A program made the translations under genes and the position numbers. Below are positions 3,001 to 45,170 of a DNA stretch of 46,582 nt, piece by piece. The stretch's first letter is position 1, and every line of letters begins with the position of its first letter. Source of the DNA: a virus; IMG/VR virus record IMGVR_UViG_3300025886_000048, positions 1 through 46,582 of that record; one strand, given 5' to 3'. The notes beneath the pieces were generated by a model that saw only the letters and a list, made by a program, of their open reading frames with translations, ran no database searches and was not told the origin of the DNA.

Positions 3001-3974
3001 CCTGATGAACCATTAATACCTGAAGTGCCTGAAGAACCGGAAGTACCAGATGAACCATCTATACCTGAGGTACCTGAGCTACCTGAGGTACCACTAGAAC
3101 CTGATGTGCCACTAGAACCTGAAGTACCGCTTGAACCACTAGTACCTGTAGCACCGTCTATACCAGAAGTACCTGATGAACCTGATTCTCCAGAAGAACC
3201 TGATGTACCACTAGTACCTGAGGAACCAGAAGCACCAGGGGCACCTGCTAGGTTAAGACACCATTCTTGAAGTGTATTAGTCCAACTTCCTGTAGTTGTG
3301 ATACTTGATATTGTTATAACTCCAGTATCAGAAGCATAATCATCTACTGTAGCTTCCATATAATTAGAGCTATCTATAGCTAAAATTACACTTTGACCTG
3401 CAGTATAAGCTAATCCGGTATCTACAGTAATAGTAAGAGGGTCTGCAGGTGTGGGATTAATACTTTGATCTGTGCAGCTAGCATATACATCACCACTATT
3501 TCCTGAAGTACCTGAGGAACCTGCTGTACCAGAAGTACCAGAAGTACCACTTGAGCTAGCACCTCCCCCTCCTCCTTCACCATCATTATAATCTAATACA
3601 ATACAAACTTCATCTTCTCTAGAAAAAGGTAGGTTTTCTGAAAAAGCGATAGAGCCAGAAGTTGTACCAGAAGTAATATCTAAAGATATGTAATTACTAT
3701 TTTCTGTTACTGAAGAGTAGGGGAAAATAGCATATGAAGTTGGGAATTCTTTTGAATGGATTAATATATTCCCCTTACTACTTCCCGTTAAATACCTTAA
3801 TATATCGTTGTTATTAAGGTCAGATGTGTTGATGTCGATTCTTGTGGTATGACGAACATCAAATTTATTATAAAAACTAAGTCTTCCCGAAACAGGAACC
3901 GTAGAGACACTCGATACTTTAAAAGGAACACAAAAGTTTCCTAAATCTCTATCTATTAAAAATTTTTGTGCCAT
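1..3974 (-). CDS. Giant Ser/Thr-rich collagen-like fibre protein (partial, C-terminus beyond window)
   Basis: The minus-strand frame from the ATG at 3974 is open to the window edge, giving at least 1324 codons without a stop. Residues 1-145 form a non-repetitive head (start MAQKFLIDRDLGNF) ending in a Gly-rich linker. After that the frame is almost entirely Gly-X-Y triplets such as GTSGSSGTSG and GVDGATGTSG, rich in Ser and Thr and nearly free of Pro. Two related globular inserts of about 80 residues (around 3485-3237 and 1535-1285) interrupt the triplets. Each starts with a Cys, carries a YTAGQ segment and ends in WC-NLAGA. Synonymous codons vary freely between triplets, so selection acts on this protein frame. 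It follows the baseplate genes and is probably a trimeric virion fibre or appendage (inference). The Gly-X-Y pattern is seen directly; the triple helix is family knowledge. Confidence 0.85.
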   Translation of the reverse strand, partial: MAQKFLIDRDLGNFCVPFKVSSVSTVPVSGRLSFYNKFDVRHTTRIDINTSDLNNNDILRYLTGSSKGNILIHSKEFPTSYAIFPYSSVTENSNYISLDITSGTTSGSIAFSENLPFSREDEVCIVLDYNDGEGGGGGASSSGTSGTSGTAGSSGTSGNSGDVYASCTDQSINPTPADPLTITVDTGLAYTAGQSVILAIDSSNYMEATVDDYASDTGVITISSITTTGSWTNTLQEWCLNLAGAPGASGSSGTSGTSGSSGESGSSGTSGIDGATGTSGSSGTSGSSGTSGSSGTSGSSGTSGIDGSSGTSGSSGTSGINGSSGTSGSSGISGSSGTSGSSGTSGSSGTSGSSGTSGTSGSSGISGSSGTSGTAGSSGTSGSSGTSGIDGSSGTSGSSGTSGTSGSSGSSGTSGTTGSSGTSGTTGSSGTSGTSGVDGATGTSGSSGTSGSSGTSGSSGTSGSSGTSGIDGSSGTSGSSGTSGSSGTSGSSGTSGSSGTTGSSGTSGTSGSSGTSGIDGSSGTSGTSGVDGATGTSGSSGTSGSSGTSGSSGTSGTSGSSGTSGSSGTSGNSGSSGTSGSSGTSGSSGTSGSSGISGSSGTSGSSGTNGSSGTSGVSGSSGTSGSSGTSGSSGTSGVDGSSGTSGSSGISGSSGTSGVDGSSGTSGVDGATGTSGSSGTSGSSGVSGSSGTSGSSGTSGISGSSGTSGTTGSSGTSGSSGTSGSSGTSGINGSSGTSGSSGTSGSSGTSGTSGSSGTSGSSGISGSSGTSGTSGSSGTSGIDGATGTSGSSGTSGADGSSGTSGTSGADGDIYADCSTQTLSTPTPPTQISIVIATGLAYTAGQNIILAQQSTPSNYIEGTVNSYILGTGDITIDVTAVGGSFSGSATWCINLAGATGQAGSSGTSGTSGSSGISGSSGTSGSSGTSGISGSSGTSGSSGISGSSGTSGSSGTSGSSGISGSSGTSGSSGISGSSGTSGIDGSSGTSGSSGTSGVDGATGTSGSSGTSGSSGTSGTTGSSGTSGSSGTSGSSGTSGVDGVTGTSGSSGTSGSSGSSGTSGTTGSSGTSGSSGSSGTSGIDGSSGTSGSSGISGSSGTSGSSGTSGISGSSGTSGSSGTSGSSGVSGSSGTSGTTGSSGTSGIDGSSGTSGSSGISGSSGTSGSSGTSGVDGATGTSGSSGISGSSGTSGSSGTSGSSGTSGIDGSSGTSGSSGTSGSSGTSGSSGTSGTSGTSGVDGATGTSGSSGTSGSSGTSGSSGVSGSSGTSGSSGFSGSSGTSGTSGSSGLSGSSGTSGSSGTSGSSGTSGVDGATGTSGSSGTSGSS

Positions 3975-20811: not shown

Positions 20812-20820
20812 TTAAATATT
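20812..20820 (-). promoter_or_regulatory. AATATTTAA variant upstream of the gene at 20801
   Basis: A one-base variant of the element (AATATTTAA), 10 bases before the ATG. Weakest copy in the set. Confidence 0.3.
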
Positions 20821-22843
20821 ATTGACCGTTATCTCCGGCATCTATAATAGTCCACCCATAAGTTCCTGTAAGTAAAGTTCTAGCTGAACCCGCTATAGAT
20901 CCAGAATATTGTTGGAGATTAGCTTCAAAAGTTACATTAGATTGTATATTAGGAGCTTGAGCAGCCCATCCTATAAGTAAATTACTATAATTCTCATCTG
21001 AGAAGCCCCAAGCATTTCGGAACATTAAAGTACAATTTGTTACATTGCTTATATCCCAATTTCCGATATCTTGATTAAATCCAGTACCCGTAACACTATT
21101 ACCAGTTCTCATAAACATCCGATAAAGATTAGTAGCTGATCCTATATTCCACCCACTAATATCTTGGTCAAAATCAAGGCATTCATAAAACATATTGTTA
21201 AAATCAGTAACATTGCTAACATCCCAACTGCTGATATCTTGATTAAAGGCATCCGCATTATTAAATGTAGAAGCCATACTAGTTATATTAGATGTATTCC
21301 ACCCTGTTATATCACCATTAAAAGAAGTTGCATTAAAAAATAAACTATTTAAAGAAGTATGATTTGAAATTGATGAAGACCAAGAATTTAAAGGTTGGTT
21401 GAATGACGATGCTCCGCTGAACATTTCAGTTATATTATTAGAAGAGCTCATATCCCAACTATCTAGAGGATGGTTAAAAGAAGAAGCACCTTCAAACATG
21501 CCCAAAAAGTTAGTACCTGAACTTACATTCCATTCACTAATGTCTTGGTTAAAAGAAGTGGCTTGAAGAAAAACTTCTCGGAAGTTAGTTATATTAGAAA
21601 CATCCCAAGAAGAAGATATATCATTATTAAATGCTGTAGCACCATAGAACATTCTATATAAACTAGTAACATTTGAAGTGTCCCAATTATTTAAAGGTTG
21701 GTTAAAAGATGTCGCTCTAACAAACATAAATTCTAAACCATTATTGGATGTTGGTGAAGCTGACCAATTTCCTATAGGTTGGTTGAAAGAATTATTATCA
21801 CCAAACATTCTATAGAATGAAGTTACATTAGATACATCCCACCCACTAATATCTTGGTTAAAAGCATTAGAATTAGCAAACATATACCCCATATCTGTTG
21901 CAGAACCTACATTCCATCCCCCAATATCTTGGTTAAAGGAATCTGCATTATTAAACATATTGCTAAAACCAGTAACATTGCTCACATCCCAACTTGATAT
22001 ATCCTGATTAAATGCTGTAGTACTCGAAAACATACTAGTCATATTAAGTACTGATGATATATCTAAGTTAATAATTTCAGGATTATTATATGGGGTATTC
22101 GAAAACATACCACCCATACTAGTACAATTACTAGTGTCCCAATTAGAAAATGACCCTGTAAATGCCGAATTAGCAAATACGTTATCTAAAGCATATGGGG
22201 GGCTAGTAGTACCCAATGTAAGAGTAGCATACCAATTTAAATTGGGGTTAGCATTAGTGCCATTTAACATAGTTCTAAGGTCACCCGTAAAGGGACTACC
22301 AGATGTAGACCAGTTAGAAAAGTCACCAGTCAAATTATCATTATTAACAAAGAGACCAAATCCTGCACCTCTTGGAAAATCTCTAGACCCAAAATCAGGA
22401 ACATCCGTAGCAGTCATATACCAATTTTCACAATTATGAAATATTTTATCAGTTACATATAAAATAGTAGGACCCCAAGATTTTACATTTATTAATTTAA
22501 GCCTATCATTAGTATCTGTTGTAGTTGATCCATCTTGGGTTGCCCATGAAATATGATCTACACCACTAGAGGCATTTTCAGAAATAACAATATCGTATTC
22601 CCCTCCTGAGCTATAAGTGTGGGTGACTTCAGATTGGTTCCAAGAAGTTATATCATCTTCTGTACCATCCCCCCATGAAACTTTAAAATTATAAGATCCA
22701 TTAGAAGTAAGGGGAAGCCTATAAGAAAAAAAATCAGTACTTCCTGCTTCAATATTCCTTGTATCTATAGTAAAATTAAAAGGTAAAACATTTGTTGATG
22801 TTCTTGGATAAGCGGCAGCAGATAATTCAAAAAGAAAAGCCAT
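20819..22843 (-). CDS. DUF285 (BspA-like) repeat surface/fibre protein with PKD-like N-terminus
   Basis: A 674-residue protein using the ATG at 22843 (MAFLFELSAAAYPRTS); a TTG two codons earlier would overlap the upstream stop. Residues 45-95 resemble a PKD-type Ig fold (KVSWGDGTEDDITSWNQSEV, then HTYSSGGEYDIVISE). Residues about 150-600 consist of many repeats of about 25 residues of the kind FNQDISSWDVSNVTDFNNMF, the DUF285 leucine-rich-like repeat of Mycoplasma and marine Bacteroidota surface proteins. The C-terminus (YSNLLIGWAAQAPNIQSN, then YGWTIIDAGDNG) is the usual cap of this family. Such proteins are adhesins; here it is probably a virion protein binding the host or a surface polymer (inference). 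Confidence 0.88.
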   Translation of the reverse strand: MAFLFELSAAAYPRTSTNVLPFNFTIDTRNIEAGSTDFFSYRLPLTSNGSYNFKVSWGDGTEDDITSWNQSEVTHTYSSGGEYDIVISENASSGVDHISWATQDGSTTTDTNDRLKLINVKSWGPTILYVTDKIFHNCENWYMTATDVPDFGSRDFPRGAGFGLFVNNDNLTGDFSNWSTSGSPFTGDLRTMLNGTNANPNLNWYATLTLGTTSPPYALDNVFANSAFTGSFSNWDTSNCTSMGGMFSNTPYNNPEIINLDISSVLNMTSMFSSTTAFNQDISSWDVSNVTGFSNMFNNADSFNQDIGGWNVGSATDMGYMFANSNAFNQDISGWDVSNVTSFYRMFGDNNSFNQPIGNWSASPTSNNGLEFMFVRATSFNQPLNNWDTSNVTSLYRMFYGATAFNNDISSSWDVSNITNFREVFLQATSFNQDISEWNVSSGTNFLGMFEGASSFNHPLDSWDMSSSNNITEMFSGASSFNQPLNSWSSSISNHTSLNSLFFNATSFNGDITGWNTSNITSMASTFNNADAFNQDISSWDVSNVTDFNNMFYECLDFDQDISGWNIGSATNLYRMFMRTGNSVTGTGFNQDIGNWDISNVTNCTLMFRNAWGFSDENYSNLLIGWAAQAPNIQSNVTFEANLQQYSGSIAGSARTLLTGTYGWTIIDAGDNGQ

Positions 22844-22845
22844 TA

Positions 22846-24714
22846 TCAAGTAGTTGCTCGTTCACCTGTTAAAGTCCATGTATCTGTATTAACTCTTTTT
22901 AGTGCTATAACAGCGTTCTGACCAGATGTTACAAGAGTTGCTGATGAATTTACTGTGACTCCGCTTCCTGCTGCTATAGTAATAGGAAAGGCATTACCCT
23001 GTTCAAAAGCTACTTCACATGAATCAGGCCATGAAACATCTGATTGAGGAGGGACTGTGTAAGTAGCTCCTGGGGAGGAAGGGGAACATTTTATATAGGT
23101 TAAATTATCACTTAAAGCAAGTGTTCTTCCTGTACTTTCTAAAGAAACTGAAAAAGAAGTACCAGCTTGTCCTGCAGGTCCTACAGGTCCAACAGGACCT
23201 TGTAAAGCGGGATTATCTACTTTAGTTAATTGAAAATATCCTTGTTGGGCATTACAAGTAGCACTAGTAGCATAATTAGCAACCCTTATTTCTACTTGTT
23301 CATTTCCATTAGGTAAATAAATAACTCTACTTATAGTACAGCTAGCCTCATCAGCACCACTAGCATTTCTTATATACCCATAGGCTCTACCTTCTACTTC
23401 AACTCCATCAACATATACATTCATACCAGGAGTTGTTCTTTGCCCTCCTACATTAAATGCTACTAAAGCATCAACTTGATAATACCCAGCTTCAGAAACA
23501 GTAATTTTTGTAGCAGATCCAGTTTCAGGAGTTAAAGAATTTCCTTGATTATATTCAATTTGATTAAATTGAACAGCAATTGCGGTTGTTACATTATAAT
23601 TTACAGTAGTATCTACAAGAAATAATCCTGTTGATTTAAATGAGGGTTGTAAACCTAGATTAATAGAAGATGCTAAGGAAAAATCTACAATAGAACCTGA
23701 TGTAGTAAGTGAACCTGTAATGTTAGTATCTCCTATTACATCTAAACTACCAGTAACACTAACACTGCCTGTGAATATATGAGTATCATCTAAACTATCA
23801 CCAAATTTAGTTGAACCCGATGAATAAATTATTGATGAAGATTCATAATTTGTTACTAATACATTAACAGAAGCAGTGCCATATATTGTAACATCTCCTG
23901 TTACTTCCAATGCTCCACTAATTGCAGCGCTTCCCGTGTATGGGAATGGATCTTCGTTAAATGACGAAGTAGGAACGGCAGTAGCAACCCAATTTTCGTT
24001 ACCAATCCAAGCATACCCCGGTTGGATATTAGGAATATCATTACTTCTACCAATAGCTGATACTAATATTTCTCCCGAGTTTTGTTGTCTTCTTGCAACT
24101 TTACCAACGTTTTGTATTAGGGCACTTCCTGTGGGTTTTACATTTGTAAGACCTCCACCTACCTGGACATAGAGTATATCACCTTCTTGAAAATCATTAG
24201 GGGCTATTTGGGTATTGACATTATCTAAAGCTCCTAATGCTACCATTTGGGTATTAACATTAGCACCTACAGTTTCATAAGCTAAACCATATGAAGGCAT
24301 TAAAGAGGGATTTAGAGCATCTGCTCTTCTAACTTCAGCTCTATTTTGCCCATTGTTAAATCCTACAACTCTTAAGGGGTCTCCCTTAGTTACAGCTTCA
24401 ATCGTTCTTACTTCAATACTTGTTCTATCCGAATAATCGAATGAAAGATTCCCACTCCCATCAGTTCTAAGAACCATAAATTCAGTTCCATCTGTGTCAG
24501 GATAATTAAGTCCTGAAGCTGTTAAGTATTGTATTTCAGTAGAGCCTGTTACTATAAGGCTTCCTGAGATTATAGCACTGCCCGTGTACGGAAAAACAGC
24601 TCCCCCAAAATTAACTAGAGAACCTGTTCCGTCATAAAAATTTGTACCATCGGTTTGTATAACCCTTTGGTACGTATTTTCTATATTTTGCCCTGTTAAA
24701 TCAGGTAGTGCCAT
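22846..24714 (-). CDS. C1q-like, collagen-containing tail fibre protein
   Basis: A 622-residue modular fibre. The N-terminal 330 residues are 'TGS' rich with segments such as YTGSAIISGSLIVTGSTEIQ and the FTGSVSVTGSLDVIGDTNIT repeat-like strand pattern found in marine phage fibres. Residues about 350-500 look like a C1q/TNF-like jelly-roll (AVQFNQIEYNQG, then AGYYQVDALVAFNVGGQRTT). A short collagen-like piece follows (GPVGPVGPAGQAG), and then a C-terminal domain of about 105 residues ending in a Trp strand (VNTDTWTLTGERATT). C1q-like domains usually trimerise and bind ligands. A 2-base gap separates it from the DUF285 gene. Confidence 0.82.
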   Translation of the reverse strand: MALPDLTGQNIENTYQRVIQTDGTNFYDGTGSLVNFGGAVFPYTGSAIISGSLIVTGSTEIQYLTASGLNYPDTDGTEFMVLRTDGSGNLSFDYSDRTSIEVRTIEAVTKGDPLRVVGFNNGQNRAEVRRADALNPSLMPSYGLAYETVGANVNTQMVALGALDNVNTQIAPNDFQEGDILYVQVGGGLTNVKPTGSALIQNVGKVARRQQNSGEILVSAIGRSNDIPNIQPGYAWIGNENWVATAVPTSSFNEDPFPYTGSAAISGALEVTGDVTIYGTASVNVLVTNYESSSIIYSSGSTKFGDSLDDTHIFTGSVSVTGSLDVIGDTNITGSLTTSGSIVDFSLASSINLGLQPSFKSTGLFLVDTTVNYNVTTAIAVQFNQIEYNQGNSLTPETGSATKITVSEAGYYQVDALVAFNVGGQRTTPGMNVYVDGVEVEGRAYGYIRNASGADEASCTISRVIYLPNGNEQVEIRVANYATSATCNAQQGYFQLTKVDNPALQGPVGPVGPAGQAGTSFSVSLESTGRTLALSDNLTYIKCSPSSPGATYTVPPQSDVSWPDSCEVAFEQGNAFPITIAAGSGVTVNSSATLVTSGQNAVIALKRVNTDTWTLTGERATT

Positions 24715-25608: not shown

Positions 25609-28600
25609 TTATTTTATCTTTAAGAAATAGGTACCTGGGTCTGAGGGGTCTTCTTCTCTCCAAATTCTATTAGTTTCTGTTGGTTCTGAAGTTGGAAGAG
25701 AGGCAGCATCTAAGTAGATACCATTAGCATAGTTTACAACTAAAATATTTTTTCTACCTGCATCACTTACTCCATTACCTATTACAAATAAAGCGTCTGA
25801 AATGTTTGATAAACCTGCAGCAACTGAACCCGAATTGTTATACTGGCCTATTACTGTTTGGTGATTTCTTCCATCTTTTAGAGCTTGACCATGTACATGA
25901 GTGTAATCATGGGAACCTGTTGAAAAAGCACCTCCCACATGAGTAAAGTCACCACTTGCTAAAGATTTAAACCCTTCAGCATGGCTATAAACTCCAGAAG
26001 CAGATGTTAATTGTCCTTCGGCGTGTGCTGCTATTCCACCAGCATAGGTAGCATTACCTTCAGCATGTGAATATTGCCCCTCAGCAACTGAAAGATAACC
26101 TTCAGCATGTGAGTAATTACCTAAAGCTTTAGTATCCCAACCTTCAGCATGTGAATAATCACCTGATGCTGAGGTTATTCTACCTTCAGCGTGTGTATAT
26201 TGTCCTTCAGTTAAAGTATCTCTACCTTCAGTGTGTGAATACCATCCTTGAGCTGTGGTTTCAAGACCTTCAGCATGAGATGCTCTACCACTAGATAACG
26301 TACTTTGACCTTCAGCATGAGCCCAACTATTTGAAGCGGTTGTAAAATACCCTTCAGTATGAGATCCTTCTCCACTTGCTAAGGTATTTTGACCTTCAGC
26401 GTGAGCACTATCCCCACTTGCTGTTGTTGATTCACCTTCAGCGTGAGAAGATGGAGCAGAAGCTATTGTAGTGAAACCTTCAGCATGAGAATTACCTCCG
26501 GATGCTATTGTACTTCTACCTTCAGCATGATCATAACTTTGTTGAGCTTGAGTATTTAAACCTTCAGCATGGGAATTTTCACCGGTTGCTGAGGTTTGCT
26601 GCCCATGAGCAAATGAATTAAATTGTACAACATTATTAGGATCACCTTGGGCCATACTTCCCGTAATGAGAACACCGCGGGAAGAAGTAACCCATAAATT
26701 ATTTGCTGTTACGTGCCAATCGTCGTCTTCCCCCCCTGAACCTGTGTTAATTGTAAGAATTTCAGTAGTACCATCCCCTTGATAAAAAGTAATTTCGTTA
26801 AGGTTAACAGATGATGAGTAATAAAATGAACCAGTATCAACAACAGAGTATGAACCTGTATATTCAAATTGACCTGTTGTTGGGTTAAATACTACAACGT
26901 TAGTACCACTACCATTAGTATCTTCTGGGATGGCTGCCCATAAAGCACCACTTGCACTTATATCGTTACTTGCAGTAACTGAAGCGTTTAATGTGATAGC
27001 ATTAGAATTAAATAATGCTAGATTGCTTCTGTTAAGATCATTAATGCCATTACCAATGATCATTAATGAATCAGAATTAGCAATATTCCATTGACCTTGA
27101 ACATGTTGGTTTTCACCTTGAGCAATAGTCCCTAAACCTTCGGCGTGTGAAGATTTACCGGAAGCAACTGTACTTGAACCTTCAGCATGAGAATTTAGTG
27201 ATGTTGCTTGTGTGTCTTGCCCTTCAGCATGAGATGATTGACCCGAAGCTAATGAACCTGAACCTTCAGAGTGAGCATATAAGCCTGAGGATATTGTACT
27301 AACACCTTCAGCATGTGATTGATCCCCTGAAGCTAAGGTGTTGTTACCTTCGGCATGAGCTTCTTGTCCAGAAGCTATAGTTGATTGTCCTTCAGCATGG
27401 GAATATACTCCTGAAGCTGTGGTGAATCTACCTTCAGAGTGGGCAGCAAAAGCAGATGCTAAAGTGTTTTGTCCTTCAGCATGGCTTGAAGCACCACTAG
27501 CAGTAGTAAATCTACCTTCGGAGTGTGCTGCTTTGTTACTAGCTAAAGTAGTATCACCCTCAGCATGAGATACAGGTCCTAATGCTAATGTATTTATACC
27601 TTCAGCGTGGGATCTTTCTCCCAAAGCTACAGTATTTTCACCTTCAGCATGAGAAGATAATCCAATAGATATGGTATTCCAACCTTCAGCATGAGACCAA
27701 CTTCCAGAAGCTATTGATCCTGAACCTTCAGCATGAGAGAAGCTCCCAGAGGCTAATGTGTATTGGCCTTCAGCGTGTGATGCTTCACCAAATGCTTCTG
27801 TTTCTTTACCTTCAGCGTGAGATGTTAAGCCTGAAGCTGAAGTGAAATAACCTTCAGCATGGGATTGATCTCCTATAGCTAGAGTATTATTACCTTCAGC
27901 ATGAGAGGAATTTCCTTCAGCAATTGTATAAAAACCTTCAGCGTGAGCATATCCTCCTAAAACTTTTGCATAAAAACCTTCTGCATGGGATGCAACTGCA
28001 AGTTCTCCTGTAGAAGTATACCATCCTTCGGTATGAGAAGTACTTCCACTAGCTATTGTATATTGACCTTCAGCATGTGAGGTGGGACCATAACTAACGT
28101 TATGTCGACCTTCTGCGTGAGAATAATCACCTTTAGATACATTTTGACCTCCTTCAACATGAGAATAAGAACCCGAGGTTATGTTAGAAACCCCTTCTAC
28201 GTGAGAACCTATTGCGGGGAGGGCAGTGTAATTAAGATGTCCTTCGGCATGTGACCAAGATGCATAGGTTATAGTATTTTCACCTTCAGCATGGGAATAT
28301 ATTCCATTGGTGTTAGTGTTAGACCCCTCAGCGTGACTTCCTATGGCTCCAATGTTTGAGGTGGTATCTTTACCTTCAGCGTGGGAGTAAAGCGCAAAAG
28401 CATTTGTACCATGTCCTTCGGCATGGGAGTATTGACCACTAGCGACTGTAGATTGTCCCTCAGCATGGGCCCCCACACCATTAGAAGTTGTATTGTTACC
28501 TTCAGCATGTGAATAGTTACCATTTGCTTCTGAAAAGTATCCTTCAGCATGTGAGTAATCACCTGCTGCAGTTGTGTTTCTACCTTCAGCATGTGAATAC

Positions 28601-30585
28601 TCACCTGAAGCTATTGAAGGATTGTTTTCGCTTCCTTGGGCTACACTCCCTGTAATGAGAACACCGCGGGAAGAAGTAACCCATAAATTATTTGCTGTTA
28701 CGTGCCAATCATTATCTTCTCCACCTTCACTACTACCATAGGATCCAGTATATTCAAATTGACCTGTTGTTGGGTTAAATACTACAACGTTAGTACCACT
28801 ACCATTAGTATCTTCTGGGATGGCGGCCCATAAAGCACCACTTGCGCTTATATTAGCGCTTGCGGTTACATCAGCTTTTAATTCAATTCCATTAACATTA
28901 AATAATGCTAAATCATTTCGGTTATTAGTATCACTACCATTACCAATGATCATTAATGAAGTATCATTATTATGGGTATTATATTTACCCTGAACGTGTT
29001 GATATGAGCCTGAGGCGATGGTGCCTAAACCTTCAGCGTGAGAATAATACCCTTCTGTTATTGTGCTTTGGCCTTCAGTATGGGAAGCATCTCCTTTAGC
29101 AACACTATAAGCACCTTCAGCATGTGAGTATAAACCTATAGCTCGAGCACCCTGTCCTTCAGCATGTGAGGCGAAACTCTCCGCAATAGTAGTTGCACCT
29201 TCAGCATGAGAATTGAAACCCCCAGCTGTGGTATTTATACCTTCTGCGTGAGAGTTAGTTCCTGAGGCTATAGTACTATCACCTTCAGCATGGGAAGAGC
29301 GACCTGAAGCTGTAGATTCATTTCCTTCAGCATGTGAATATTCTCCAGAAGATATTGATCCTGAGCCTTCAGCGTGTGATCTAAGACCTGAGGCTATGGT
29401 TTTATATCCTTCAGCATGAGATGCAACTCCAGAAGCTATAGCCAATTGACCTTCAGCATGACTATAATCTCCTGATGCTGTAGTAAGACGTCCTTCAGCA
29501 TGTGTTGATGTAGCAGTTGTTAGAGTATTTTCACCTTCAGCGTGTGAATATAATCCTAAGGTATTAGTACCAAACCCTTCAGCATGGCTATAAGGAGAAG
29601 AAGCAGTTGTAAAATAACCTTCAACATGGGATGAATCTGCAACTGCGGTTGTAAGAGTTTTTCTACCTTCAGCATGTGAGTAGGATGCTAGAGTAATAGT
29701 ATCTCTACCTTCGGCATGTGAAAAACTGCCTGATCCTAATACATTTTGTCCATGAGCAAAAGCAGCGGTAGCGACTGCTTGTGTATTACTACCATGAGCA
29801 AAAGCAAAGTCTGCAGTAGCAGAAGTAAAATTATCTCCAATTGCAATAGGAGCACAAGCTGTAAAATCTACTACAGGAGAAGGACCCATTAATAATCCAC
29901 CACAACAATCTATTTGAACAAATCCAAAAGGATTAAATACTATAGTTTCACAATTCTCATTAAGTGGGTATATAGTAAAAGATCCTGAGGTAACTATATT
30001 ACCTAATATAGTATTAGTAGTAGTATTGTCACTTTTACCTAAAGTAATATTATTACCATTTACATCAATTAAAATTCCATTTGAATTAGCATGGTAAAAT
30101 CTATCAGTACCTAATCGGAAAATAGTATTATCATCACCATCTGCAAAAATTGCTTGGGTAGTTGTCCATTTAGAAGCATCAACTCCTCCTTTTGAAGTAG
30201 TAGTAGCCGATTTACCTAATTGGAGGGCGTCTAATTCTTGCTTGGTAAAACTTGATATAGAAGCTCCATCAACAAAATTTATAGATCCATCAGAAACATA
30301 AAGTTCTTTCCATGCTTGGGTAGGACTTCCTAAATTAAAAGAAGAAGTTGTTTCTCCACCTCCTACATCTGGGAGGATATTCCCAGAAATAAACAGGGTG
30401 TTATTTATGTCTACGCTTCCGTCGAATATGACGGTTTCTCCTGCTGCAGAAGATGTTGTTCCTAAACGAGCATTTATTACATCGTATAAGCTGTTAACTG
30501 AAGTTTTAGTATCATTAAATATAGAAGCACTAACGGCACTATCAGCACCGTTATTTGCTCTATCATCCCAAGTAATTTTTGCCAT
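25609..30585 (-). CDS. Giant YadA-head-repeat (SHAEG) fibre/adhesin
   Basis: A 1658-residue protein. The N-terminal 240 residues are a non-repetitive assembly region ('NNTTTNTILGN' type strands and a Cys-containing stretch). Three blocks of dozens of 14-residue repeats of the kind SHAEGxxTxASGxY follow; this is the Hep/Hag (YadA head, PF05658-type) left-handed beta-roll. Two connector regions (GSYQHVQGKYNTHNNDTSLM and the later QHVQGQWNIANSDSLMIIGN) divide the blocks, each followed by the same ISASGALWAAIPEDTNGSG and VTANNLWVTSSRGVLITGS stretches. The last 130 residues end DPSDPGTYFLKIK. Such head domains are trimeric adhesins, here probably a long host-binding fibre (inference). Confidence 0.88.
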   Translation of the reverse strand: MAKITWDDRANNGADSAVSASIFNDTKTSVNSLYDVINARLGTTSSAAGETVIFDGSVDINNTLFISGNILPDVGGGETTSSFNLGSPTQAWKELYVSDGSINFVDGASISSFTKQELDALQLGKSATTTSKGGVDASKWTTTQAIFADGDDNTIFRLGTDRFYHANSNGILIDVNGNNITLGKSDNTTTNTILGNIVTSGSFTIYPLNENCETIVFNPFGFVQIDCCGGLLMGPSPVVDFTACAPIAIGDNFTSATADFAFAHGSNTQAVATAAFAHGQNVLGSGSFSHAEGRDTITLASYSHAEGRKTLTTAVADSSHVEGYFTTASSPYSHAEGFGTNTLGLYSHAEGENTLTTATSTHAEGRLTTASGDYSHAEGQLAIASGVASHAEGYKTIASGLRSHAEGSGSISSGEYSHAEGNESTASGRSSHAEGDSTIASGTNSHAEGINTTAGGFNSHAEGATTIAESFASHAEGQGARAIGLYSHAEGAYSVAKGDASHTEGQSTITEGYYSHAEGLGTIASGSYQHVQGKYNTHNNDTSLMIIGNGSDTNNRNDLALFNVNGIELKADVTASANISASGALWAAIPEDTNGSGTNVVVFNPTTGQFEYTGSYGSSEGGEDNDWHVTANNLWVTSSRGVLITGSVAQGSENNPSIASGEYSHAEGRNTTAAGDYSHAEGYFSEANGNYSHAEGNNTTSNGVGAHAEGQSTVASGQYSHAEGHGTNAFALYSHAEGKDTTSNIGAIGSHAEGSNTNTNGIYSHAEGENTITYASWSHAEGHLNYTALPAIGSHVEGVSNITSGSYSHVEGGQNVSKGDYSHAEGRHNVSYGPTSHAEGQYTIASGSTSHTEGWYTSTGELAVASHAEGFYAKVLGGYAHAEGFYTIAEGNSSHAEGNNTLAIGDQSHAEGYFTSASGLTSHAEGKETEAFGEASHAEGQYTLASGSFSHAEGSGSIASGSWSHAEGWNTISIGLSSHAEGENTVALGERSHAEGINTLALGPVSHAEGDTTLASNKAAHSEGRFTTASGASSHAEGQNTLASAFAAHSEGRFTTASGVYSHAEGQSTIASGQEAHAEGNNTLASGDQSHAEGVSTISSGLYAHSEGSGSLASGQSSHAEGQDTQATSLNSHAEGSSTVASGKSSHAEGLGTIAQGENQHVQGQWNIANSDSLMIIGNGINDLNRSNLALFNSNAITLNASVTASNDISASGALWAAIPEDTNGSGTNVVVFNPTTGQFEYTGSYSVVDTGSFYYSSSVNLNEITFYQGDGTTEILTINTGSGGEDDDWHVTANNLWVTSSRGVLITGSMAQGDPNNVVQFNSFAHGQQTSATGENSHAEGLNTQAQQSYDHAEGRSTIASGGNSHAEGFTTIASAPSSHAEGESTTASGDSAHAEGQNTLASGEGSHTEGYFTTASNSWAHAEGQSTLSSGRASHAEGLETTAQGWYSHTEGRDTLTEGQYTHAEGRITSASGDYSHAEGWDTKALGNYSHAEGYLSVAEGQYSHAEGNATYAGGIAAHAEGQLTSASGVYSHAEGFKSLASGDFTHVGGAFSTGSHDYTHVHGQALKDGRNHQTVIGQYNNSGSVAAGLSNISDALFVIGNGVSDAGRKNILVVNYANGIYLDAASLPTSEPTETNRIWREEDPSDPGTYFLKIK
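26663..26721 (-). repeat. 59-nt direct repeat within the SHAEG gene, copy 1
   Basis: Identical over 59 bases to 28652-28710, inside the connector encoding HVTANNLWVTSSRGVLITG. The exact identity contrasts with the diverged SHAEG repeats around it. Confidence 0.9.
26858..26934 (-). repeat. 77-nt direct repeat within the SHAEG gene, copy 1
   Basis: Identical over 77 bases to 28748-28824, and nearly identical for about 20 more bases after one mismatch. It encodes PEDTNGSGTNVVVFNPTTGQ. Confidence 0.9.
28652..28710 (-). repeat. 59-nt direct repeat within the SHAEG gene, copy 2
   Basis: Second copy of the 59-base unit at 26663-26721, about 2 kb upstream in the same gene and in the same orientation and frame. 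Confidence 0.9.
28748..28824 (-). repeat. 77-nt direct repeat within the SHAEG gene, copy 2
   Basis: Second copy of the 77-base unit. Together with the 59-base repeat it marks a duplicated connector module. Confidence 0.9.
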
Positions 30586-30622: not shown

Positions 30623-31321
30623 TCAGTAAATTGGATTGTCAATGTAATAATCTCTTAAATCTTCAACTATTTCATTCCTGTGATTGGACTTTAAAGTGAT
30701 TGCTTCTAGATTTTTAACTTTACGTGATGCTTTGTATAGATATTTAAAACCAGAATCTGATTTTTTCTTTAAGTCTGTTTGGTGTTGATCCCCACATACC
30801 ATCATTTTAGAGCGTAAACCCAAACGTGTTACAATCATTTCCATTTGTTCGTGTGTTACGTTTTGGGCTTCATCTACAATAACACATGAATCCAAAAATG
30901 TTCTACCTCTCATAAATGATACAGGTACAATTTCTATTTTACCATCTTTAATAAATTTTTCTACTTTAGCTTTGTCATATAAAGTAAAAAAGTTTTGATA
31001 GATAGGTTGTACCCAAGGATCCATTTTTTCTCTTAAATCACCTGGGAGGAATCCTATATCTTCTTTTGATACTGTAGGGCGTGTAATTATTACTTTTTGG
31101 TATACTCTCCTAATTAAACCATCTAAAGCTATTTGGCAAGCTAATAATGTTTTACCCGATCCCGCTTGTCCAGCTAATAAGGTAATTGTATTATCTAATA
31201 TTACTTGTTTAGCTTCTTTCTGTTCGTCGTTGAGTGATACTTTAAATTTAATTGGGTTCTTCACTACTTTTTTTTCTCTGAAGATTTCTTCAGCTTTTGG
31301 GGTGGTATTGAAATGGGTCAT
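30623..31321 (-). CDS. phoH: PhoH-like P-loop ATPase
   Basis: A 232-residue protein using the ATG at 31321 (MTHFNTTPKAEE); an upstream Met at 31342 would deepen the overlap with the PSD gene and is less likely. The core is a PhoH-family AAA-type ATPase: Walker A GQAGSGKT at residues 51-58, the PhoH segment TVSKEDIGFLPGDLREKM, and Walker B VIVDEAQN at about 147-154. PhoH is common in marine phages. A nucleotide-hydrolysing, RNA-related role has been proposed for the family but not settled. Here it overlaps the PSD gene by about 32 bases and forms the end of the metabolic cassette, suggesting co-expression. Confidence 0.92.
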   Translation of the reverse strand: MTHFNTTPKAEEIFREKKVVKNPIKFKVSLNDEQKEAKQVILDNTITLLAGQAGSGKTLLACQIALDGLIRRVYQKVIITRPTVSKEDIGFLPGDLREKMDPWVQPIYQNFFTLYDKAKVEKFIKDGKIEIVPVSFMRGRTFLDSCVIVDEAQNVTHEQMEMIVTRLGLRSKMMVCGDQHQTDLKKKSDSGFKYLYKASRKVKNLEAITLKSNHRNEIVEDLRDYYIDNPIY

Positions 31322-32039
31322 TTCTAAAATTAATTTTAACAAGTTTGTCTAATCCTGCATTTACATGCATTGTATCTTTTAAGACAAGGTCAAAATCGTA
31401 TCTTTCATCCAAAGGAAGAACTAAATCAACTTGTGATCCCCATCTTATAAGTGAAAAACGTTCATTTTGCGACACAGGCGCATTTTGATCGTTAATAAAG
31501 GGGGCAATTACATTAACATCTTCATCAGCTATTTGTACTAAGTAATAAGTATAATCTAATTGTGGAGAATATATTTTATTTAACATTCTCTCATTGTATT
31601 TAAGATACTCTAAATTGTTGGGGTTAATCGCAGCATTTAAAATATCCTTTTCTACAGCAAGCATAGGTTTGTTAGTAGATTCTATGGGATCTAATCCTTT
31701 ATATTGTAGTATGCCTGCATAGGGTATTCTATTTATATGAACATCATAAAATGACATAAATATTCCAATTACAAGAGACGGTTGATTATAGTGTTTATCA
31801 CCAAGTACGTCTTGTAAAGTGTAATTCATACCTTTAATTTCTACTATAGAATCAGTAGGATTTTCTATAAATTTTTGGTATAAAATAGTGCCGTCTGCTG
31901 GGGAGTAGAAATGTTTGTAGTCTATATAGTTGGGACGCATGGGGTCCCTAAAAAAGAATGTGTTTGATAATTCTCCTACTTCTAACTTCGAAAGCTCAGC
32001 TACTTCTCCGTCTAACCAATCTTCTAAATATTGAGCCAT
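31290..32039 (-). CDS. psd: Phosphatidylserine decarboxylase (short, bacterial/archaeal type)
   Basis: A 249-residue protein with all signatures of the PSD family, whose enzymes turn phosphatidylserine into phosphatidylethanolamine using a self-generated pyruvoyl group. Visible are FFFRDPMRPN near residues 28-37, SPADG at 46-50 (catalytic Asp 49), GIFMSFYDVHINRIPYAG near 92-109 (His 101), and ERFSLIRWGSQVDLVLP near 193-209. The Gly-Ser at 201-202 is the usual self-cleavage site, leaving pyruvoyl-Ser. No N-terminal membrane segment is seen; short-type PSDs associate peripherally. The gene starts by TAATG overlap with the DDAH-like gene and ends inside phoH. Auxiliary metabolic function in host lipid remodelling is inferred. 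Confidence 0.92.
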   Translation of the reverse strand: MAQYLEDWLDGEVAELSKLEVGELSNTFFFRDPMRPNYIDYKHFYSPADGTILYQKFIENPTDSIVEIKGMNYTLQDVLGDKHYNQPSLVIGIFMSFYDVHINRIPYAGILQYKGLDPIESTNKPMLAVEKDILNAAINPNNLEYLKYNERMLNKIYSPQLDYTYYLVQIADEDVNVIAPFINDQNAPVSQNERFSLIRWGSQVDLVLPLDERYDFDLVLKDTMHVNAGLDKLVKINFRNDPFQYHPKS

Positions 32040-32953
32040 TAAAGTAAGGATTTAGTATAATCAACGTAATTTAAGTGCATTATCATACAACTTAACATAG
32101 CACCCGATTTCATATATTCTGAAAGGTTAAAAAATACTGGTTCTAGTCCTTCATTAAAGCATATTTTTTCTATGCTTTCAATTTTATGTTTTTCAGCTTC
32201 ATAATTTTCATCTGCTCTAGTCATTTCAGAAATGTTAGAGGCACATAAGATCATGTTACCTAAACGTACAGAATTAGTTAAACCGTTAAGAGCATCGTCA
32301 ATTTCTACGTTTACTATGTTAGTATACTGTGATAATTCAGCTAATTCATCTTCATTGAAGAGTTCCGTGCAAACTAATGTTTTATCCATAGTTAACGGGA
32401 AAATAGAACAATCGAGGTGATATAAATATTCATCAACCATTTCAAGTTTAATGATTTTCATATCAAATTCTTTTTCCATCCATTCATAAGCTTTGATATC
32501 TGAACGGATTCCATATCCCCCTACATAAACATTGTCATAAAGATATTTTAAGTCTGCTTCTCCTTCCCATTTAAAAGGGCACATGTGGACTTTATAATTC
32601 ATTAATTCAAAAAATGGTTTTCCTACTTCTTCTTCACCTTGGCGAGGTTCTGAAGTGAAGTTAGCCATGATGATATTATTTGAATCTTTAATATGGGGAA
32701 GGTAAATACCTAAGTTAGCAACATAAACTAAATCTTGATAATTTCCTTTGGCAGGAAGATTACACACAAGTCCATTACCTGCTACAAATTGGTACAAATC
32801 TAAAAATTGTCTATAAGCGTTTCCTTTATTTATTTTTAACGCTTCTTCCTCCAACTCTTGCATCCAAACATTATTTGGAACTGCTGTGTCTAATGTGAAG
32901 GGGAAATTCATAACAAATGCCGGGATTGGCAACTGAGAGGGTGTCTCTTTCAT
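32039..32953 (-). CDS. DDAH/arginine-deiminase-like amidinohydrolase
   Basis: A 304-residue protein with the plan of the guanidino-group modifying (GME) superfamily: NYQDLVYVANLG near residues 71-82, KWEGEADLKYLY near 128-139, YVGGYGIRSD near 143-152, YHLDCSIFPL near 178-187, and SGAMLSCMIMHL near 283-294. The expected catalytic residues are visible (Asp/Glu of the EGEAD motif, His 179, Cys 289). Family members hydrolyse arginine, methylated arginines or related amidines to citrulline-type products, or transfer amidino groups. The precise substrate cannot be read from the sequence. It is the first gene after the capsid terminator, has a TATATTTAT element 26 bases upstream, and is coupled by TAATG to psd. 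Confidence 0.85.
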   Translation of the reverse strand: MKETPSQLPIPAFVMNFPFTLDTAVPNNVWMQELEEEALKINKGNAYRQFLDLYQFVAGNGLVCNLPAKGNYQDLVYVANLGIYLPHIKDSNNIIMANFTSEPRQGEEEVGKPFFELMNYKVHMCPFKWEGEADLKYLYDNVYVGGYGIRSDIKAYEWMEKEFDMKIIKLEMVDEYLYHLDCSIFPLTMDKTLVCTELFNEDELAELSQYTNIVNVEIDDALNGLTNSVRLGNMILCASNISEMTRADENYEAEKHKIESIEKICFNEGLEPVFFNLSEYMKSGAMLSCMIMHLNYVDYTKSLL

Positions 32954-32988: not shown

Positions 32989-33009
32989 GTATACCTACTA
33001 GAGAATAAA

Positions 33010-33033
33010 AAAGCCCCACCGAAGTGGGGCTTT
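33010..33033 (-). terminator. Intrinsic terminator after gp23 (UUCG loop)
   Basis: The minus-strand hairpin AAAGCCCCAC TTCG GTGGGGCTTT has a perfect 10-bp stem and a UUCG loop, and is followed by TTTATTCTC. It lies 25 bases beyond the capsid gene stop and separates it from the DDAH-like gene cassette. Confidence 0.9.
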
Positions 33034-33058: not shown

Positions 33059-34675
33059 TTAGATAGTGTTTAAACCTGCTACCATGATCTTAGCATAGTA
33101 TTCAGGTCTCAACATCTTCTTAGCGTAACGAGTCAAGAGACCTTTTCTTGGAGTGAAGGTCGTTGGATCGTATACGAGAGGAGTCATGATCAATGGAATG
33201 TAAGGAGCGAAAGTAGCACCTGTTTCCAAGAATTGTGAACCTCTGAAGCCTAACAAAATAGTGTTTTCAGTCATGTATGGGTTCTTGTAAACTTCATACT
33301 TAGCATTCAAGTTACCAACTTTCTGGATACCGAATGCATAGTTCATAGTTTCAGCATCAGCACCATCAGCAGCAGCGAATCCTGGGATTGATTCCAAGAT
33401 AGTACCTACTGTTGGAGAACATACCATAAAGTTAGCACCTCCTCTTAAAGTTAACTGGTGGATCTTGTTAGATACCTTGTTTAACTTAGTACCAAGAGTT
33501 TGGAACCACTGACCTTGTGTATTGTAGAAAGTACCGTTATCTACTGCACCCGTACCATCAAATTGTTCGTTGTTTTTAGCTGACCAGTATTCAGTAGTTA
33601 AGGCATTTTCAACCAACATACCGAGGAGTTCCAAATCGATCTCAAGAGCGATGTACTCACTCATGATAGAAGTCAACTCAGCTTCAGCATCCAAGCTGTG
33701 GTAAGCATTCAAATCTTGTGCGAACTCAGGAGTCCATACAGCTTTGAGCTTTTTAGTCTTAGCAACGATTGCTTCAGACTTCATCTTGATGTTGATTTCT
33801 GGGATATCGATTGTTTCGTTTTCATTGTTGAGGGCAGTATTACCGTCCTCGAAGTCACCTCTGTATTGATCAGTTGGTTGTTGTACGTAAGTAACAACTA
33901 ATCCTGAAGGATCAGTACCATCAACACCTTGAGCAAATAAAAATACGTTAGTACCAACAACATTGTTGTAAGCAGCAACGTTTGAAGTGATAGTTGAACC
34001 AGAAACTGTAAAGCCTCTAACACCTGCTAAATCAGGATTGGCGAAAGAAGTAGTAGCAATTTCAAGTTTCTTCAAAGTACCAGCTACGATTGAAGATGAT
34101 AAAGCGGCATCATATCCAGTATCAGCCCAAGAAGCTGTTGTTGCAGTTGCAGTAACACCAGATTGAGTTACCTGTGAAGAGTAGGTCCATCTACCCGCAC
34201 CATACAAACCATCTGTAGGAGTAGCAGTAGTGTCAGTAACACCGTACAAAGAACCTGTACCGAATACATTACCACCTGCATTGAACTTACCACCTAATTT
34301 TTCAGTACCATACTGGAAATCAAGGAAGAACACAAGGCCAGAAGGTAAGTTCATTGGTTGAACGCTAACGAAATCTTTCGCTGCAATTTGACCAAATACC
34401 TTTCTTACGAGAGGAAGAGCAATACCCGCCCACTGTTCACCGGTACCTGCTTGGAAGTTACCTACTGAAGCGAGTCCACCACCTGTTTGAGACGTTTCAA
34501 CAACGAGTTGTTTCGCCTGATTTTCAAGGATCAAAGACATATTGTTTCTGTCCATCTCAGAAGAGAGGCCTTCTAACAATCCTGTCCGTGACCACTTATT
34601 GGCTAACTTAGCGGCATCAGACTGAACTGATTTCCACTGGTTAGCACTCTCTAAAAGAGAATTTAAGTTTGACAT
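33059..34675 (-). CDS. gp23: Major capsid protein gp23
   Basis: A 538-residue protein with gp23 hallmarks: a helical N-terminus, an internal GEQWAGIALPLVRKVFGQIA followed by KDFVSVQPMNLPSGLVFFLD segment, and the C-terminal pattern SQFLETGATFAPYIPLIMTP with LTRYAKKMLRPEYYAKI. T4 gp23 is cleaved by the prohead protease after residue 65. Here the motif LVVE ends at residue 60, followed by TSQTGGG, and LILE ends at 51, both candidate cleavage points. It follows the scaffold gene with a 24-base A-rich leader and is followed by a strong UUCG-loop terminator. The GC-rich, codon-optimised look of this gene relative to neighbours fits high expression. Confidence 0.97.
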   Translation of the reverse strand: MSNLNSLLESANQWKSVQSDAAKLANKWSRTGLLEGLSSEMDRNNMSLILENQAKQLVVETSQTGGGLASVGNFQAGTGEQWAGIALPLVRKVFGQIAAKDFVSVQPMNLPSGLVFFLDFQYGTEKLGGKFNAGGNVFGTGSLYGVTDTTATPTDGLYGAGRWTYSSQVTQSGVTATATTASWADTGYDAALSSSIVAGTLKKLEIATTSFANPDLAGVRGFTVSGSTITSNVAAYNNVVGTNVFLFAQGVDGTDPSGLVVTYVQQPTDQYRGDFEDGNTALNNENETIDIPEINIKMKSEAIVAKTKKLKAVWTPEFAQDLNAYHSLDAEAELTSIMSEYIALEIDLELLGMLVENALTTEYWSAKNNEQFDGTGAVDNGTFYNTQGQWFQTLGTKLNKVSNKIHQLTLRGGANFMVCSPTVGTILESIPGFAAADGADAETMNYAFGIQKVGNLNAKYEVYKNPYMTENTILLGFRGSQFLETGATFAPYIPLIMTPLVYDPTTFTPRKGLLTRYAKKMLRPEYYAKIMVAGLNTI

Positions 34676-43481: not shown

Positions 43482-43739
43482 TTATCCTCCTTGGCGTGAT
43501 GATTCTCTCATTGCAGGGTTTTTATACCATGGGACTCCATTTCTTTCTCTTCGAACTTCTTTCCATTCTTCTTCAGTATGATAAATCCCATAAATATAAT
43601 ATTCTCTTAACCGTCTTACACCCTGAGGTATGAGAGCTGGCCCTTCCCAATTGTGAAGTTTACCATCCCAGTGGTGTAATATAGTACCATCAGGGGTTTT
43701 AGTTCTTGTTGGCTTTGGCCATTTGTTATCCTTTCCCAT
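43482..43739 (-). CDS. Small DG-H-GPA motif protein
   Basis: An 85-residue basic protein with PDGTILHHWDGKLHNWEGPA near residues 16-35, a short DG-x-LH-x-x-GPA motif that recurs in small phage proteins. The second half is Trp/Arg/Glu-rich (EYYIYGIYHTEEEWKEVRRE). It is coupled by TAATG to the FAD dehydrogenase gene. The function is unknown to me. Confidence 0.6.
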   Translation of the reverse strand: MGKDNKWPKPTRTKTPDGTILHHWDGKLHNWEGPALIPQGVRRLREYYIYGIYHTEEEWKEVRRERNGVPWYKNPAMRESSRQGG

Positions 43740-45109
43740 TATTTTTTTAATATTTGTTCTGCTACTAATGTACCTTGTGCTCCCGATACTGTAATGCCTC
43801 TTGCACTTAAAGCATCACCTACAAAATGAACATTAGGATATGTAGTTAAGCTTAAATCTTGATAATTTACAAGTGGTTCAGGTGATAAGTATTTTACTTC
43901 AGGTACGTAAATTCCCCAATCATCACCAAGTGTTGGGAATACTTTTTTCATATCCTCAATAAAGTCTTCAATATATTTAAAATATCCTTTAAATGCATCT
44001 CTTACTTCTTGAAGACCAGATTCACCAATATAATGTGCTTTAACCCAATTACCTTCAGATGTAAGTGTTTTATCTTTATTTGAAGGGCTATAGTATAAAC
44101 CTGCTTTATATTTAGCTTCAAATCGTCCTAATGCTTTTTTACCACCTGATCCTTCATTTGAAACTATATTATGTTTTTGTACTTTAGAAACTAACTCACG
44201 TGACCAATCAAATGGTTTATCAATACCTTTAACTTCCATTAAGATACCAAAATTAGTCATATTGTTTCTATGTTCTTCTCCTTTTTTAGCATGACCATTG
44301 TAGCTATAATCACCATATGTTTCTTCTAGGGCCACATAAGCTGCGTTATTGTTGGTACAAAATGAACGAAGTGATACACCTTCATCTTCAAACTTACGAT
44401 ATAACTTAAAGTCATAACTTACATCAATTAATTTTTGAAAGTGTTTTTGTGGTGCTTCAAATCTAACGCCAATTTGTACTGGTTTTGGTTCTGTTGGTAA
44501 TTCATATTGTTCAGCTAATTTTTTACCAAAGTCAATGCCTGATTTTCCTACCCCAAAAATAAGAGTGTCATATCCTATCCAATCATTATCTTCTGTGCTT
44601 TTATCAGTGTGTAATTGTTGGGCATCAAAATCAATTGATGTAACCTTAGTTTTCCAAATAAATTTAACACCTTTATCACAAAGATAATCGTACCAATTTT
44701 TACCAATCTCATGTAGATAATCTGTACCTACGTGCCAAACTGGGAATAAACGTAGTCCAAAGTATGGTTTAATAAAATCAGGTTCTGCTACAGGATTAGA
44801 ACATTGTACTTCTTCTGGTTTAGGGTGGAAACGCTTAAAGTTAGTGATTACTTGGTCCATTAACTCCATTGCCTTTTCATCGCCCGTATACTTAGTTAAA
44901 TGACCACCTATTGAAGTGTGGTATGTAAGTTTACCATCACTCCATCCTCCAGCACCCATAAAACCTGTCATTACTTCCTCAGGTTTACGGTTATATGGAT
45001 CATTACCCATATCAATGATGGTAATTTCACCATCAAAACCTTCATCTACTAATTTAGTTGCAGCATTAACACCTGCTACACCTGCTCCAATTATTACTAT
45101 TTTTTCCAT
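43739..45109 (-). CDS. COG2509-type FAD-dependent dehydrogenase
   Basis: A 456-residue protein using the ATG at 45109 (MEKIVIIGAGVAGVNAA); the longer frame from 45142 adds 11 unrelated residues. A Rossmann GAGVAG motif binds FAD at residues 8-13. The segment GGWSDGKLTYHTSIGGHLTK corresponds to the GGAGAFSDGKL hallmark of COG2509 dehydrogenases, and the C-terminus has the FAD-closing VHFVGDALSARGITVSGAQG. Between them, SYNGHAKKGEEHRNNMTNFG resembles the NGMS..NAN motif of that family. The substrate of these enzymes is not established. It is preceded by a strong terminator and followed by TAATG coupling. Its function in infection is unknown; it may be an auxiliary metabolic gene. Confidence 0.85.
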   Translation of the reverse strand: MEKIVIIGAGVAGVNAATKLVDEGFDGEITIIDMGNDPYNRKPEEVMTGFMGAGGWSDGKLTYHTSIGGHLTKYTGDEKAMELMDQVITNFKRFHPKPEEVQCSNPVAEPDFIKPYFGLRLFPVWHVGTDYLHEIGKNWYDYLCDKGVKFIWKTKVTSIDFDAQQLHTDKSTEDNDWIGYDTLIFGVGKSGIDFGKKLAEQYELPTEPKPVQIGVRFEAPQKHFQKLIDVSYDFKLYRKFEDEGVSLRSFCTNNNAAYVALEETYGDYSYNGHAKKGEEHRNNMTNFGILMEVKGIDKPFDWSRELVSKVQKHNIVSNEGSGGKKALGRFEAKYKAGLYYSPSNKDKTLTSEGNWVKAHYIGESGLQEVRDAFKGYFKYIEDFIEDMKKVFPTLGDDWGIYVPEVKYLSPEPLVNYQDLSLTTYPNVHFVGDALSARGITVSGAQGTLVAEQILKK

Positions 45110-45136
45110 TGTTGTATTAAGATTATGTAAATATAC

Positions 45137-45170
45137 GAACAAAAAGTGACGTCTCCAAAGGAGACGCCAC
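45137..45170 (-). terminator. Intrinsic terminator after the histone-like gene
   Basis: On the minus strand an 11-bp stem (GTGGCGTCTCC pairing with GGAGACGTCAC, one wobble) has a TTT loop and a TTTTTGTTCG tail. It separates the small-gene cluster at 45227-46582 from the FAD dehydrogenase gene. Confidence 0.88.

Follow-up and report, generated by a model that had tools for sequence, protein, structure and literature searches.

A phosphatidylserine decarboxylase-superfamily protein and an arginine dihydrolase-like partner as a candidate arginine-to-putrescine cassette of phages and bacteria

Pyruvoyl-dependent ornithine and arginine decarboxylases derived from AdoMet decarboxylase have been proposed to feed polyamine synthesis in phages (PMC9992855); in that paper, arginase is reported in no phage, and the terms 'phosphatidylserine' and 'arginine dihydrolase' do not appear. 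The decarboxylase described below resembles these enzymes in being a phage-borne, predicted pyruvoyl enzyme proposed for polyamine supply, but it belongs to the phosphatidylserine decarboxylase (PSD) superfamily, whereas they descend from SpeD. That PSD-superfamily enzymes can act on free amino acids is already known from solved structures, among them the PsiD L-tryptophan decarboxylase (8zia) and the Aspergillus oryzae arginine decarboxylase (9jf5), which share the superfamily fold and have longer chains (350 to 382 residues) than the phage protein. The canonical PSDs (PF02666; E. coli PSD, 7cnz/6l06) form another close comparison. PMC11360552 terms viral psd abundance in the oceans negligible. 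The closest described relative of the partner is ArgZ/AgrE (6jv0, 6lrf), the cyanobacterial arginine dihydrolase, which it resembles in fold and in aligned active-site residues; the chains of ArgZ/AgrE are about 700 aa long, unlike the stand-alone partner of 304 aa. We found no description of a PSD-fold decarboxylase paired with a stand-alone dihydrolase in the portion of the open-access literature covered.

The window, that is, the whole 46,582-nucleotide stretch of viral DNA analysed here (IMG/VR record IMGVR_UViG_3300025886_000048), represents part of a T4-like phage genome, with matches to the gp23 capsid protein, the prohead protease, a T4-type terminase and PhoH. On the minus strand the genes run in the order gp23, partner, decarboxylase and phoH, and the partner lies directly upstream of the decarboxylase:

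33059..34675, minus strand: gp23 major capsid protein, upstream (PF07068, 1e-72)
33007..33030, minus strand: terminator-like hairpin followed by a T run, in the gap that separates gp23 from the partner gene (read from the sequence)
32039..32953, minus strand: partner gene, 304 aa, product predicted to modify guanidino groups and nearest to the arginine dihydrolase ArgZ/AgrE (phrog_12759, NF052232, fold)
32037..32041, minus strand: TAATG overlap of the partner stop and the decarboxylase start (junction read)
31290..32039, minus strand: 249-aa member of the PSD superfamily (cassette subfamily), predicted to be a pyruvoyl-dependent decarboxylase (PF02666, phrog_12670, tree)
31893..31895, minus strand: Asp49 codon, PADG motif
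31737..31739, minus strand: His101 codon, DVHINR motif
31524..31526, minus strand: Asp172 codon, subfamily-only residue
31434..31439, minus strand: Gly201-Ser202 codons, predicted self-cleavage site
30623..31342, minus strand: downstream PhoH-like gene; by the listed coordinates it overlaps the decarboxylase ORF (PF02562, 5e-62)

The first-pass annotation had placed a phage PSD at 31290-32039, and these coordinates are correct, with the strand being minus; the plus strand across the interval is crowded with stops. Of 80 related viral contigs, 72 carried gp23, partner, decarboxylase and phoH together; in the other 8 either gp23 (7) or phoH (1) was not found.

The decarboxylase matched PF02666 at 6e-25 with 88.5 bits, above the cut-off of 22, and matched phrog_12670, a PHROG family of unknown function, at 7e-44. 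When Pfam was scanned at E<=1, only a sub-threshold DUF3669 match appeared besides PF02666, and the AdoMet decarboxylase family PF02675 gave no match. The three PSD signatures reported earlier are present in order, namely SPADG with D49, FMSFYDVHINR with H101, and RWGSQVDLVLP with G201-S202. D49, H101, G201 and S202 were unchanged in 34/34 aligned viral and bacterial relatives, and a second, larger alignment gave the same result for its phage rows and bacterial cassette rows (45/45). The alignments of the decarboxylase (A5) and of the partner (A6) held 34 and 32 rows, respectively, picked for diversity, and rows L074 and L080 were left out of alignment A2. Given the PF02666 score and this invariance, the three signatures are not a matter of chance. 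As the protein belongs to the PSD family and carries an intact autocleavage signature, it is probably a pyruvoyl enzyme, and self-cleavage is predicted from the motif and the family.

The AlphaFold2 model of the decarboxylase had a pLDDT of 84.5 and a pTM of 0.85. A Foldseek search with this model returned nothing at E<=0.001, the best match being PsiD at 4.8e-3. The VIA fold comparison gave a sugar-transport IIA domain (Z 12.2), E. coli PSD (12.0), PsiD (9.7) and the Aspergillus arginine decarboxylase (9.2). Since the IIA domain is tied with E. coli PSD, the fold match is silent on substrate; the modelled fold supports the PSD superfamily and no particular substrate. At the sequence level, the A5 profile of cassette decarboxylases found neither 8zia nor 9jf5 at E<=10.

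The protein could be a genuine PSD that produces phosphatidylethanolamine during infection, the lipid-synthesis role suggested at first, and this reading gains from PF02666 membership, from the intact motif with a GS-x-VD arrangement like that of short-type PSDs, and from E. coli PSD ranking first among the enzymes that the model matched. Superfamily, motif order and the positions of Asp, His and Gly-Ser are indeed shared with canonical PSDs. However, in a tree of 65 rows the phage and bacterial cassette proteins grouped together (branch 99/96), apart from both the canonical short PSDs (97/96) and the long PSDs (100/99); the 65 rows included 17 from phages, and the phage-like contig L266 and the truncated L267 were left out. 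The PSD equivalogs of NCBIfam all scored far under their cut-offs, with a best value of 72.6 bits against 183. Residue 172 was D in 45/45 cassette and phage rows, G in 4/4 short and A in 16/16 long canonical PSDs, and further residues confined to the subfamily were N103, N123, E130 and Q191 (45/45 each) and Q203 (44/45), the last being R, T or S in canonical PSDs. The side chain of D172 may meet a positive one. The highest 19-residue hydropathy before PADG was 0.31 in the decarboxylase of the window, did not exceed 0.55 among 192 relatives (a set with repeats) and lay between 1.22 and 1.61 in 4 short-type PSDs, so that the hydrophobic N-terminal segment of these four is absent here; long-type PSDs ranged from 0.26 to 1.23 and overlap the cassette values.

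Further points against a lipid role came from other genes. A separate, stronger PF02666 protein, a canonical PSD at E<=4e-36, was present in 23/29 bacterial cassette genomes (the exceptions being G006, G008, G012, G020, G021 and G025), and among 10 related phage records a search for CDP-alcohol phosphatidyltransferases of the PF01066 type found none (0/10). The gene is also bound to that of an arginine dihydrolase-like enzyme, a fixed partner that canonical PSDs do not have. We therefore keep the earlier assignment as far as PSD-family membership and the autocleavage signature are concerned, and do not retain a phosphatidylserine decarboxylase for lipid synthesis, which we consider highly improbable. 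The accompanying remark that lipid-synthesis genes are rare in tailed phages was too strong, as the gene already bears the label PSD in GenBank entries for Campylobacter phages and a single scan of IMG/VR yielded 199 relatives. In three of the bacterial genomes (G001, G003 and G005), a third and weaker PF02666 protein of ~220 aa (5e-9 to 1e-12) was seen beside the canonical and cassette copies.

The partner matched phrog_12759, another PHROG family of unknown function, at 4e-60, and a Pfam scan of the gene gave no match. Its model, with a pLDDT of 93.5, was closest to ArgZ/AgrE (Z 34.5-34.8, rmsd 1.8 A over 264-265 residues, 25% identity), followed by AstB (27.4), DDAH (~27; 27.2), and arginine deiminases and amidinotransferases (~23-26); agmatine deiminases reached about 20-21. 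ArgZ/AgrE was also closest by sequence. When AgrE residue numbers were assigned from chain positions, AgrE N22, N71, R90, E118, R139 and H168 aligned with partner N28, N80, R104, E130, R150 and H179, respectively. AgrE Cys264 lies beyond the alignment and was paired with C289 by its closeness to the C-terminus. E130, H179 and R104 were kept in 32/32 partners, and N80, R150 and C289 in 31/32; N28, too, was conserved in 31 or all 32. The titles of PDB entries name N71S and C264S mutants. By analogy with ArgZ/AgrE, we take the Glu, His and Cys to be catalytic, N80 (AgrE N71) to be an ArgZ-like Asn, and AgrE R90 and R139 to hold the arginine carboxylate. The modelled fold thus places the partner as a guanidino-modifying enzyme nearest the arginine dihydrolases ArgZ/AgrE, with dihydrolase activity predicted; its score against the NCBIfam arginine dihydrolase NF052232 was 3e-22 and 79 bits, far below the cut-off of 450, which counts against that prediction.

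Two other assignments of the pair bear on these data. The order could be reversed, with the PSD-fold enzyme converting arginine to agmatine and the partner agmatine to putrescine. A PSD-superfamily arginine decarboxylase has been solved (9jf5, the Z 9.2 match above), and bacteria place the decarboxylase gene first, both in favour of this order. We nevertheless judge it quite improbable: the Z of 34.8 to ArgZ/AgrE contrasts with about 20-21 to agmatine deiminases, and the dihydrolase-first order is favoured because R104 and R150 correspond to the two arginines that presumably hold the carboxylate. Alternatively, the partner could work as a deiminase or an amidinotransferase, and citrulline or another amino acid could be the substrate of the decarboxylase; in bacteria the neighbouring MATE transporter would export the product. 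GenBank labels the partner an amidinotransferase, DDAH and the amidinotransferases share its fold with Z of 27 to 23, and MATE genes adjoin the pair in three of the loci examined; against this stand the ArgZ-like Asn in 31/32 partners, the first rank of dihydrolases by fold, and PotD-like neighbours. This assignment seems unlikely to us.

The decarboxylase was found in 45 of 50,697 phage records (39 Campylobacter and 6 Bacteroides), and the partner accompanied it in 45/45. The partner without the decarboxylase appeared in two records, Campylobacter PP921807.1 and a distant Xanthomonas match. In PP921807.1 the partner match is partial and in two pieces and there is no decarboxylase match, possibly a broken pair. 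Both genes were present in 77/80 viral contigs, and the three misses (L050, L066 and L068) are uninformative, as the decarboxylase there begins <=61 bases from the locus start and the upstream side is unseen. Across 161 viral loci, in which many contigs are repeated, the pair was adjacent in 156; the remaining loci comprised 4 misses at the locus start and 1 with the partner on the opposite strand.

The genome scan gave 30 bacterial relatives (Verrucomicrobia, Actinomycetota, Latescibacterota, Campylobacterota, Pseudomonadota and others), 28 of which had an adjoining partner; one of the 30, L266, lies on a phage-like contig with the phage gene order and a very high partner score. Among the 29 genomes searched (that of L245 was left out), the partner was present in 28: G012 has it some 600 kb away from the decarboxylase, and G029, the genome without a partner, has a truncated decarboxylase match. 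Phages and bacteria arrange the two genes in different orders, and a distance of about 43 kb separates them in phage NCTC12673. These differing orders and this separation make passive hitch-hiking unlikely, and our best reading is a cassette common to bacteria and several phage lineages. As a GenBank note hinted at a natural-product context, the Streptoalloteichus regions carrying the actinobacterial copies were examined, and the ORF listing alone revealed no obvious biosynthetic cluster. One Streptoalloteichus partner copy (L248, 10735-11694) has N28, N80, R150 and C289 all changed and appears decayed; it is the one deviant among the 32 partners, its adjoining decarboxylase retains the motifs, and the same genome has a second pair.

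In Verrucomicrobiales, the decarboxylase was present in 13/288 genomes, and the partner at E<=1e-30 in exactly those 13, with weaker, partial matches in 6 others. SpeA (E<=1e-50) was found in 219/288 genomes, distributed as 0/13 with the cassette and 219/275 without; the best speA matches in the 13 were 1e-11 to 1e-16. Agmatine deiminase (PF04371, E<=1e-20) was found in 225/288, as 2/13 (G021 and G024) and 223/275, respectively. Fisher tests gave 3e-9 for speA and 1e-6 for agmatine deiminase, values that ignore kinship; as 12/13 of these genomes fall in one clade of the tree, the contrast may stem from one event. Over all cassette genomes, speA was above the cut-off in 6/29, and the pair is therefore not always a replacement and would be an additional route there. 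A missing-step pattern across the 29 cassette genomes was sought and was not clean, the clear contrast being within Verrucomicrobiales and largely in one clade. Spermidine-synthase-family matches were scattered (22/29), and PF02784 matches occurred in 27/29, a family in which LysA is not separable from the polyamine enzymes.

Transporter-related neighbours were also recorded. A MATE gene lies near the pair in L238, L241 and L254, and a PotD/PotF-like gene, a neighbour seen in one phylum only, lies near it in L247 and L254, two Verrucomicrobial loci that were scanned. A gene of the same cluster occurs in 10 loci. In L254 (13314-17191) a hybrid histidine kinase, and not a set of transporter permeases, comes after the PotD/PotF-like binding protein; this may be a polyamine sensor.

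As the decarboxylase almost always occurs with an arginine-breaking enzyme, it probably contributes to the synthesis of putrescine and not of membrane lipid. In the two-enzyme cassette that we propose, the partner, acting like ArgZ, would hydrolyse L-arginine and yield L-ornithine; self-cleavage at Gly201-Ser202 would turn the PSD-fold protein into a pyruvoyl enzyme, which would decarboxylate ornithine to putrescine and CO2; and a T4-like phage could in this way raise the polyamine content of the infected cell, for example as a DNA counter-ion at head filling. We infer that the protein cleaves itself, that the two reactions take place and in this order, and how the product is used. The cassette is supported by the motifs and the invariant active-site signature of the decarboxylase, its separate subfamily, its near-absolute coupling to the partner in phages and bacteria, the closeness of the partner to ArgZ/AgrE, whose aligned catalytic positions are unchanged in 31 or all 32 of the partners, and the missing SpeA route in cassette-bearing Verrucomicrobiales. 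The MATE and PotD/PotF-like neighbours, the PSD-superfamily enzymes of free amino acids in the PDB (one being an arginine decarboxylase) and the separate canonical PSDs also favour it. On the other side stand the 6/29 genomes with speA, the single clade behind 12/13 Verrucomicrobiales, the low partner score against the dihydrolase cut-off, the restriction of the PotD-like neighbour to a single phylum, the lack of a spermidine synthase in the 10 related phage records, and the Aspergillus arginine decarboxylase, which in our own reading of the alignment has Phe and not Asp at the column matching D172. Weighing these, we regard the case for arginine to ornithine to putrescine as evenly balanced. 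That it constitutes a so far unnamed arginine-to-putrescine route, replacing SpeA and agmatine deiminase in a Verrucomicrobial lineage and also present in distinct lineages of large phages, cultured phages of Campylobacter and Bacteroides among them, we put forward tentatively, at slightly under an even chance.

If correct, this proposal would assign a role to PHROG families 12670 and 12759, both of unknown function at present, would correct a lipid annotation that recurs across Campylobacter phage records, would extend the PSD superfamily by a further branch of decarboxylases that act on free amino acids, and would explain putrescine production in some bacteria without SpeA. Whether some T4-like phages produce their own DNA counter-ion would become a question testable in cultured phages.

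Several other proteins of the window, all on the minus strand, were noted. An open-ended protein of >1300 aa (3-3974) consists mostly of GTSGSSGTSG-type repeats with a DNA period of 9 bases. A 676-aa protein (20819-22849) carries repeated FNQDIS-W-DVSNVT units, and a predicted FAD/NAD-dependent oxidoreductase (43739-45142; Pyr_redox_2, 1e-10) adjoins the head genes. The 1658-aa protein at 25609-30585 contains dozens of 14-residue (42-base) SHAEG repeats, which we find reminiscent of the heads of trimeric adhesins.
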